35,419 nt of DNA from Planctomycetaceae bacterium (GTDB taxonomy: Bacteria; Planctomycetota; Planctomycetia; Planctomycetales; Planctomycetaceae): contig JAIXZD010000071.1 in assembly GCA_027489895.1 (NCBI GenBank), positions 1-35,419 of the forward strand. The letters run 5' to 3'. The position numbers and the translations under genes were made by a program. Below are positions 1 to 2,085 of the stretch, piece by piece (the stretch's first letter is position 1; the number at the start of each line of letters is the position of its first letter). The notes below the pieces were generated by a model. It saw nothing but the letters and a program-made list of their open reading frames with translations, was not told where the DNA came from and searched no databases.

Positions 1-20
1 CAATGTCCACATCGTCTTCT

Positions 21-200
21 GATTCGACTGCTGTCTGGGAGTCCGTGACGGTCCAAAGGTAGCGATGCAGGGTGACGGGCTAGTAAACGACGCAGAGATC
101 TCTTCGAGAAGCATGCGTCAGTCCACGGTCTTTTGCGATAGCAGAGGATACGGACGGCCGTAAGGTCTAACGACACCTCTCGGTCCTCCCTCGTCGAATC
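21..200 (+). ncRNA. Candidate Y RNA 1 (Ro-associated, divergent head)
   Basis: A non-coding RNA is inferred from structure. Its ends form an 8-bp stem, GATTCGAC (21-28) with GTCGAATC (193-200), followed by a T-rich TGTTTT (201-206). Its 5' block (21-46) matches the 5' block of the next RNA (262-287) at 20 of 26 positions, including TGGGAGTCCGT. Its 3' block (177-200) matches 375-398 at 16 of 24. Three pairs of the terminal stem differ between the copies but stay paired. A GNRA-capped hairpin, GGCC-GTAA-GGTC (156-167), sits at the same place as one in RNA 2. The interior (47-150) has no recognisable T-arm. It can form GACGCA (89-94) with TGCGTC (114-119), a weak D-arm-like CTTT/AGAG hairpin (130-146) and GTCC (51-54) with GGAC (152-155). 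Position directly upstream of a Ro60 gene supports a Y RNA. Exact ends and promoter are unknown. Confidence 0.62.
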
Positions 201-261
201 TGTTTTAACAATTGAAGGGAAACCAGCGCCGACGGTGTTGTCAGCCTGGTTGTTTGACGTC

Positions 262-398
262 GGCTCGACTGTCGGATGGGAGTCCGTCTTACTCCGAAGG
301 CTGCGGGTTCAAGTCCCGCCTGCGAAAGCAGTAGCTCAACGGGATAGAGCATCGGAATGGCCGCAAGGCCAGTTCTCTCGCCACCCCTTCGTCGGGCC
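262..398 (+). ncRNA. Y RNA 2, YrlA-like, with circularly permuted tRNA domain
   Basis: The terminal stem is GGCTCGAC (262-269) with GTCGGGCC (391-398), followed by CTTTTGTTT. Inside lies a tRNA core in permuted order: anticodon-stem 3' strand TCCGA (293-297), a 5-nt variable loop (298-302), T-stem GCGGG/CCCGC (303-307/315-319) with loop TTCAAGT, acceptor-like CTGC (320-323), a GAAA tetraloop, GCAG (328-331), T-A as positions 8-9, D-stem GCTC/GAGC (334-337/347-350) with a 9-nt loop, A as position 26, then TCGGA (352-356) pairing back to TCCGA. A hairpin TGGCC-GCAA-GGCCA (358-371) follows. GGGAG (278-282) can pair with CTCTC (375-379). Bacterial YrlA RNAs are known to bind the Ro60 orthologue Rsr and to mimic tRNA. 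The order and the neighbouring TROVE gene fit that family. It cannot be an ordinary tRNA: it has no 7-bp acceptor stem and no free 3' end at the acceptor. Ends are approximate. Confidence 0.82.
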
Positions 399-420
399 AC
401 TTTTGTTTGGAGGTCGGATC

Positions 421-2085
421 ATGGCCAACAAGTCCTTGTTTTCGCGCATGAAGGCGCTGTTTCCACGAGCCCCGGCGCGGAACGAAGCCGGTGGACCGGC
501 CTATGCGCTGGACCCGAAGCACGCGCTCGCTCAGTTCGCGGCGACGGGTTGCTTCAATGGAACGTTCTACGCCGATGCCGAGACGCAGTTCGACACGCTG
601 AAGTCGCTTATCGCTCAGGTGAACGACAACGTCTTCCTGGCGAAGCTGGCGGTCTACTCGCGCGAGCGCGCGTACCTGAAGGACATGCCGGCTGCGGTGA
701 CGGCGACGCTCGCCGCGCGGGACACGGTCCTGTTCCAGCAGGTATTCGACCGCGTGATCGACAACGGCCGCGTGCTGCGGACACTGTTCCAGATGATTCG
801 CTCGGGTCAGTTCGGCAAGAAGAGCCTCTCGAGTTCGCTGCAGCGGGCGTTCCAGCGGTGGTTGAACACGGCATCGCCGGAGAAGCTGCTGTCAGCGTCG
901 ATCGGTCACGATCCGTCGCTGCGGGACATCCTGCGGCTGGCGCGGCCGACGCCATCGGACAACAGCCGGCGGGCGCTGTTCGGTTGGTTGACGAACAAGG
1001 ACGTTGCGAAGTGGACGCCGGCGGGTGAGGTCGACTTGCCGGAGCAGGTCCGGCTGTTGGTCGCGTTCCGCACGGCGGAAACGGCTGAACAGCAGATCGC
1101 GCTGTTGCAGAGTTCGAGTGGCGACGAAGGTCGTCGGGGCCTGAACGCGCGGTGGGACTTGCTGGCCGACACGGCCAAGGGACCGAAGGTTTGGGCGGCG
1201 ATCGCGCAGACGATGGGTCCACAGGCCTTGCGCATGAACCTCAACACGCTGCAACGGCATGGCGTCTTCAACGATGGGGAAACCGTGAAGGCGGTCGCGG
1301 CTCGGCTGACGGATGAAAACGAAATCCGTCGGTCGCGTCAGTTTCCGTACCAGTTCTTTGCGGCGTACTTGAACGCAGCAGATGAAGTGCCACAGGCGAT
1401 CAAGACCGCACTGCACAAGGCGGCGGAGATCGCGTGCGGCAACGTGCCGGAACTGCCGGGACCGATTGTGATCGGTCTCGACGTGTCGGGGTCAATGCAG
1501 TCGCCGGTTACGGGAAGCCGTGGCCGCGGCGCAACGACGAAGATGCGGTGCGTGGATGTCGCGGCCCTCGTGGCGGCGGCCCTCCTGCGGCGCAACCCGG
1601 AGAGCGTGGTCGTGCCGTTCGACACGCAGGCGTACGATGTGAAGATCGATCCGTCCGACTCGATCCTGAGTCTGGCGGACCGACTGGCGAAGTACGGTGG
1701 AGGTGGAACCGACTGCTCGTTGCCGATCAAGAAGGCAAACGCGGCTTACGCGAAGCGGAAGTTCGCGGGTGTCGTCCTGGTCAGCGACAACGAGAGCTGG
1801 GTCTACCAGGGTCGTCCGTACTTCTACGGTGCGAATGGCTCGACCGGCGTGATGACGGAATGGCAGCAGTTCGTGCGGAATCAGGTGCGGTTGCACGGAG
1901 GCGACTTCGCGGGGCCGAAGCTGATCTGCATCGACCTGCAGCCGAACCAGACGACGCAGGCCCCGGAACGCAGCGATATCCTGAACGTCGGCGGCTTCAG
2001 TGACGCCGTGTTCGAGGTGATGAGCGCGTTCCTGACCAGCGACGCCGGTCGGTTCGTGACGGAAATTGAAGGGATCGAACTCTAA
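421..2085 (+). CDS. rsr: TROVE-domain Ro60/Rsr RNA-binding protein
   Basis: A 554-residue orthologue of Ro60 (bacterial Rsr), a ring-shaped protein that binds Y RNAs on its outer surface and RNA ends in its central hole. It acts in RNA quality control and, in some bacteria, tethers exonuclease PNPase. The N-terminal two thirds is the helical TROVE region. The C-terminal third is a von Willebrand A-like fold with a complete MIDAS set: D354-V-S-G-S358, T430 in GGGGTD, and D456 in VSDNES. The ATG at 421 is preceded by GGAGG (409-413) at 7-nt spacing. An upstream in-frame start would translate through the Y RNA and is rejected. Length fits the family (about 530-540). The gene starts 22 nt after the Y RNA 2 terminal stem, so RNA and mRNA may share a transcript that is processed, or the T-tract may terminate most transcription. 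No RtcB ligase or PNPase gene lies in the window. Confidence 0.93.

Follow-up and report, generated by a model that had tools for sequence, protein, structure and literature searches.

The window, by which we mean the whole 35,419-nt stretch of planctomycete DNA analysed here (contig JAIXZD010000071.1), begins with two stem-forming RNA units which are followed on the same strand by a Ro60 gene. The Ro60 open-reading frame matches two domain families (PF05731, E = 2.5e-11; PF25045, E = 2.5e-16), and the closest solved structure is Rsr of D. radiodurans (2nvo, E = 6e-23). Just 3' of Ro60 lies an integrase-core fragment (PF13683, E = 1e-6) at positions 2184-2558 on the reverse strand, and a scan of the window and of a small number of flanking open-reading frames showed neither RtcB nor RtcA beside Ro60. 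The features at the start of the window are as follows:

20-201, forward strand: unit 1, putative Y RNA with a 23S rRNA H69-H71-like interior, a damaged copy at the contig edge (terminal stem, unit detector, models R1 and R2)
203-206, forward strand: T-tract after unit 1 (sequence; TTTT is enriched after units)
261-399, forward strand: unit 2, YrlA-like Y RNA (Rfam RF02553; R2, E = 7e-6)
401-404, forward strand: T-tract after unit 2 (sequence)
421-2085, forward strand: Ro60/Rsr, 554 amino acids, TROVE plus vWA (PF05731 and PF25045 above cut-off; match to 2nvo)

Recomputation returned the block identities between the two units given in the first-pass annotation (20/26 in the 5' block, 16/24 in the 3' block), as well as its terminal stems, which consist of eight Watson-Crick pairs in unit 1 (21-28/193-200) and eight pairs, one of them T-G, in unit 2 (262-269/391-398). 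Pairs 22-199, 23-198 and 24-197 (A-T, T-A and T-A) become 263-397, 264-396 and 265-395 (G-C, C-G and T-G), both T-rich ends are present, and the TROVE/Ro60 gene lies 3' of both units on the same strand. The proposal that these are Y RNAs with covarying terminal stems 5' of Ro60 is supported by related genomes: the stem is kept there, whereas its loss had been named as grounds for refutation. Folding each sequence by itself gives ordinary energies (z = -1.4 and -1.9) and does not discriminate, so the support for the units rests on comparison.

For this comparison a unit was defined by a 5' motif, a 3' motif and the terminal stem, a detector that recovers both units of the window; it was written after reading these loci, so that shuffled sequence and the reverse strand are a control and not an independent test set. 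Dinucleotide shuffles of window positions 1-420 contained at least one unit in 14 of 3000 cases and two units in 0 of 3000. Applied to the 35.5 kb upstream of 28 related Ro60 genes, the detector found 109 units; shuffled sequence (1.42 Mb) gave 9, the reverse strand a single one and coding sequence none. Consecutive units are separated by a median gap of 14 nt, TTTT occurs no more than 12 nt past the 3' stem in 56 of 116 units (5% at random positions), and the Ro60-adjacent placement seen in the window recurs in most related loci. Units per locus range from none to ten, the named relatives belonging to the Pirellulaceae, Planctomycetaceae, Gemmataceae and Thermoguttaceae (Planctomycetia), with ten units in the complete genome of K23_9. 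Homologous arrays are present in cultured planctomycetes (K23_9, Stieleria sedimenti and Rhodopirellula sp. JC639), which makes the mimicry proposed below testable.

The two units had been taken for a paralogous pair and a dual-Y-RNA particle, an interpretation that did not survive. Base 1 of the window is a contig end, hence two is a contig-edge artefact and not the true number of units. The last 229 nt of a second contig of the same assembly (C135:21072-21300) overlap window positions 1-229, with 213 of 229 nt identical, and this contig bears five further units (read by eye), which brings the source genome to seven; units 1 and 2 are the final two of a seven-unit array and have only their ends in common. 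The 16 differences in the overlap are concentrated where Y RNA bases are conserved, the deviating bases being those of the window; a mixture of strains, a fault in the assembly or decay of one copy could explain them. L042, the closest relative, has a Ro60 that is 93% identical over the first 430 residues and six clear units 5' of it, the last two placed as units 1 and 2 are in the window. Nor is a tandem arrangement new in itself, since the Salmonella rsr-yrlBA-rtcBA locus was already known to have consecutive Y RNA genes next to rsr (PMC7790460).

That the units differ in their interiors was correctly described in the first-pass annotation, which overlooked what those interiors resemble, namely two different mimics: a permuted tRNA in unit 2 and 23S H69-H71 in unit 1. 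The YrlA covariance-model search it had suggested aligned unit 2 over the full length of RF02553 (38.2 bits, E = 3.1e-6), placing a T arm, a closed acceptor-like hairpin and a D arm in permuted order:

303-319, forward strand: T-arm-like hairpin GCGGGTTCAAGTCCCGC (YrlA alignment)
320-331, forward strand: acceptor-like hairpin closed by GAAA (YrlA alignment)
332-351, forward strand: D-arm-like hairpin TAGCTCAACGGGATAGAGCA (YrlA alignment)

At the Rfam gathering score (69 bits) there is no Y RNA match in the window, and with its 38.2 bits unit 2 is to be called YrlA-like rather than a curated member of RF02553. Model R2, trained without unit 2, detects it through the common ends (E = 7e-6, whole genome). 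On this alignment, unit 2 carries a permuted tRNA mimic of the YrlA type. We also observed a second Ro60 clade (~45% identical; L059, L061, L065, L070 and L071) with YrlA-like units downstream, not upstream, of Ro60; the downstream unit of L065 exceeds the Rfam gathering score.

The tight spacing of the units and the position of the last one, which in about one third of loci ends 18-28 nt 5' of the Ro60 start codon, would also suit a structured leader of the Ro60 mRNA that regulates in cis, in place of free Y RNAs. Against such a leader stand the presence of up to ten units, T-tracts after about half of them, the similarity to YrlA, the other loci where the last unit lies 70-300 nt or more from Ro60, and the other Ro60 clade with its downstream YrlA-like units. 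We regard a leader as highly improbable.

The YrlA search fared differently on unit 1 (20-201), for which no YrlA or tRNA match was found even at E = 10. Unit 1 lacks the tRNA-like module and has a 23S-like core instead, and is thus not a YrlA. Its parts are:

34-41/177-184, forward strand: inner helix (helix 2) of the common end, putatively Ro60-binding (two-sided changes at 6 of 8 pairs)
46-65, forward strand: 23S-like core (H69 3' strand plus H70 segment), TGACGGTCCAAAGGTAGCGA (BLAST; R1)
48-53, forward strand: 5' strand (ACGGTC) of the re-formed H69-like stem (covarying helix)
67-80, forward strand: position of the H71-like hairpin, two pairs of which are broken in the window copy (comparison)
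156-161, forward strand: 3' strand (GGCCGT) of the re-formed H69-like stem (covarying helix)

The core is identical to a 23S gene at 19 of 20 positions (BLAST, E = 9e-5) and corresponds to TGACGGTCC(T/A)AAGGTAGCGA, a highly conserved 23S sequence made up of the 3' strand of H69 and a segment of H70; its short form is CUAAGGUAGCGA. Past the core, and in 23S order, come the H71-like hairpin and then GUGAAUGG. The hairpin is intact in the C135 copy (GCCGG GTGA CCGGC), and where the window copy has odd bases at conserved positions (CCAAAGG; GCAGG..CGGGC) the C135 copy has the conserved ones. The 23S-like part amounts to ~55 of 182 nt, the other helices of unit 1 being without a known 23S counterpart.

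A covariance model built from 27 planctomycete 23S genes only (R1) recovered the same site. Over 41 Ro60 loci (301 kb) its ranks 1-16 are all Y units (E = 1e-6 to 0.013), the next match standing at 0.54; these E-values are rough, as are those of R2, because both models were calibrated on little random sequence. The window copy (match at 43-68, E = 0.013) is the weakest of the 16, and the overlapping C135 copy has E = 1e-5. On 74 further loci, mostly named records and some of them from genomes already covered, the top matches were again Y units, in ~15 more genomes; the matches in L161 (E = 0.09) and L143 (E = 0.4) score weakly, yet lie at the same location. R2 gives E = 3e-39 for unit 1 of the window, a copy within its own training set. 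In the complete genome G096, 29 consecutive nucleotides of the unit are identical to the 23S encoded there (E = 6e-7, with 7.8 Mb searched). When 339 units were compared with the G096 23S, the best 25 matches (E = 1e-11 to 1e-4) were all in sense orientation and at this site, the best E in the reversed control being 0.004.

Arrays without a 23S-like unit exist (for example L034, L037 and L053), a search of the window's own assembly with RF02541 found nothing, and unit 1 had no match in phage and viral collections. Other rRNA, SRP and RNase P motifs did not occur in the units beyond chance, aside from a short 5S motif with a few three-mismatch matches (6 vs 0.4), and matches to tmRNA motifs turned out to be ordinary T arms. 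The idea of a 23S intron, raised by relatives without a 23S match, was dropped, since those complete genomes likewise gave no match to a 23S query of 1001 nt, which suggests that rRNA is missing from their searchable sequence. L202 (genome G359, another family of the phylum) is matched by R2 (E = 2e-9) and contains GGACTACATGACGGACCTAAGGTAGCCACG; it may be related to unit 1, from beyond the families covered here.

The fold of unit 1 was assessed in an alignment of 20 homologues (A3). In the consensus structure 93.6% of cells are paired, a share that drops to 31-45% when the partners are slid; the comparison favours the consensus, which was predicted from the same alignment. Two-sided changes occur at 26 of 42 pairs and 0 of 500 shuffles reach any of the measures; relatedness inflates this shuffle control, and the two-sided changes are the best evidence for the fold. 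In the terminal stem they affect 6 of 8 pairs, with 96% of cells paired, and the H69-like stem covaries among homologues (AGGAGC:GCUCCU, AGGGUC:GGCCCU and ACGGGC:GUCCGU). Judged from sequence, the ACGGUC:GGCCGU helix restores the H69 stem but leaves the loop open, the Ro60 stem exiting at the position of the H69 loop; likewise, from the order of arms in YrlA, the Y stem there would replace the anticodon arm. In a minority class (L033, L035, L036, L047 and L171) the H69 hairpin is retained in cis, as CGUAACUAUGACG or a near variant.

A conserved stretch this short, in a window copy that is degraded, might be no mimic but a captured rRNA fragment inserted neutrally in a Y RNA, and the tRNA-like modules could likewise have come from neighbouring tRNA genes. 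However, the core is nearly invariant across families whilst the flanking helices change by compensation, H71 is shortened alike in most copies, and the H69 stem is kept by two-sided changes that lead away from the 23S sequence. This covariation disfavours a neutral captured fragment, which we consider very unlikely.

The surroundings of the arrays are rich in tRNA genes. Upstream of 51 Ro60 genes there are 349 tRNAs (234 kb), compared with 7 downstream (198 kb); a tRNA array lies upstream at 25 of the 51 loci, its final tRNA often being tRNA-Cys. Same-strand arrays of up to 34 tRNA genes were seen directly 5' of the Y arrays (L042:49-3877, L123:1-3758, L137, L140, L144 and others), and in K23_9 the array tRNAs (~25 of 65) mostly score below the other ~40. 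On C135, from the source genome, no recognisable tRNA array was found. An RNA ligase gene (PF09414, E = 2e-13) lies within the tRNA array at L136:2869-3654, and an HNH-like open-reading frame (judged by eye) within that at L042:2780-3442. In short units of 71-91 nt (L033, L034, L036, L041, L042, L043, L050 and others) there are hairpins that resemble, by inspection, anticodon arms with varied anticodons; their stems have 4-5 bp and their loops 7 nt, for example CTGTTAA, TTGGTAA, CTCTTAA and CTGAAAA. One further short unit (L125:4129, at -900 from Ro60) carries AGTACGAGAGGA in a sarcin-ricin-loop-like hairpin, a single example which is not significant alone.

These neighbours bear on the main rival, in which the array would be a panel of decoys imitating tRNA and rRNA sites (the anticodon arm, 23S H70 and possibly the sarcin-ricin loop) that are hit by ribotoxins or phage-induced nucleases; Ro60 would display them to absorb or sense these enzymes, and the adjoining tRNA array would supply replacement tRNAs. 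It would account for the short units with 5-bp, 7-nt-loop anticodon-arm-like hairpins and their varied anticodons, for the tRNA arrays at 25 of 51 loci, including the ~25 lower-scoring tRNAs that K23_9 has besides ~40 others, and for an RNA ligase gene inside one array. The tRNA-like domain of YrlA has been proposed as a possible anticodon nuclease inhibitor (PMC7790460), and jumbo phages carry TROVE proteins together with tRNAs (PMC7824862). Yet these hosts have no known toxin, the likeness to anticodon arms is a judgement by inspection and not a statistical result, the sarcin-ricin resemblance stands on its one example, insignificant by itself, and the source genome is without a recognisable tRNA array on C135; we think a decoy panel rather unlikely. 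A chromosomal translation-protection island, combining a degenerate second tRNA set, Ro60 and Y RNA mimics of the tRNA elbow, the anticodon arm, 23S H69-H71 and perhaps the sarcin-ricin loop, is also an unlikely reading; were it true, these parts would jointly counter attacks on translation RNA by absorbing, sensing or repairing them.

The interpretation we prefer, at a probability of roughly 0.7, is an array of Y RNAs with Ro60-binding ends and interchangeable mimics of translation RNAs, in which unit 1 docks a reader of 23S H69-H71. Its anatomy, an array of units with stem-forming ends and unit-specific interiors, H69-H71-like in unit 1 and tRNA-like in unit 2, is very probably right as far as sequence can establish it. 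Ro60 would be bound through the conserved ends, and the interior would serve as an effector module for a protein whose usual target is the same piece of 23S. Candidates for this protein are factors of late 50S assembly, recycling or rRNA processing, and nucleases that attack rRNA. In unit 1 the mimic comprises the H69 stem, the CCUAAGGUAGCGA segment and a shortened H71 hairpin; it is open at the H69 loop, and the putative Ro60-binding stem stands in place of that loop as it would stand in place of the anticodon arm in YrlA. The reader protein would thereby be brought to Ro60 or held off the ribosome, and this step, that unit 1 docks an H69-H71-reading protein onto the Ro60 particle or keeps it off the ribosome, is a tentative one to which we give a little under even odds.

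The stem of YrlA binds Rsr and its other end binds PNPase, and it is modified by tRNA enzymes (PMC8394870); D. radiodurans Rsr acts in 23S maturation and rRNA decay, according to work cited in PMC4726728. On the strength of this precedent and of the action of Rsr on 23S, we judge docking of a 23S H69-H71 reader to be the most likely role. It is less likely that the mimic is itself modified, since unit 1 has lost the 23S stretch that contains the m5U1939 (RlmD) site. If the 23S piece is indeed an effector, Ro60 would use interchangeable mimics of translation RNAs, and the unit 1 mimic would offer a handle on the older observation that bacterial Ro60 takes part in maturing and degrading 23S rRNA.

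Bacterial Y RNAs that mimic tRNAs have been described before, and so have tandem Y RNAs. A literature search that stopped short of the main Y RNA papers contained no rRNA-mimic Y RNA, no planctomycete Y RNA and no arrays this long, and the same literature has no description of loci in which a tRNA array, a Y array and Ro60 follow one another. With YrlA (RF02553) the units share the place beside Ro60, the 8-bp terminal stem, the conserved ends and, in unit 2, the permuted tRNA-like interior, but unit 2 falls below the gathering score and the interior of unit 1 is 23S-like, not tRNA-like. The Salmonella rsr-yrlBA-rtcBA locus similarly has more than one Y RNA gene adjoining a Ro60 orthologue (PMC7790460), whereas the planctomycete arrays have 7-10 units upstream of Ro60, no RtcB/RtcA was seen in the stretches scanned, and many relatives have a tRNA array alongside. 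In the Deinococcus RYPER complex (Rsr, Y RNA and PNPase), a Y RNA tethers Ro60 to a partner that acts on structured RNA (PMC4726728, PMC8394870); the Ro60 of the window is an Rsr homologue, but the tether here would be rRNA-like, of a kind not described in the literature searched. Jumbo phages have tRNAs and a Ro60-type protein in one genome, tied there to RNA repair (PMC7824862), whilst the planctomycete locus is chromosomal, has many Y RNAs and includes a unit 1 without phage or viral match. Finally, compared with H69-H71 of 23S itself, unit 1 retains the core sequence, the H69 stem, an H71-like hairpin and GUGAAUGG, but in most copies the H69 loop is opened, 6-8 nt are deleted between the core and H71, the H71 loop is shortened to a GNRA-like one, and the whole is embedded between Y RNA ends.
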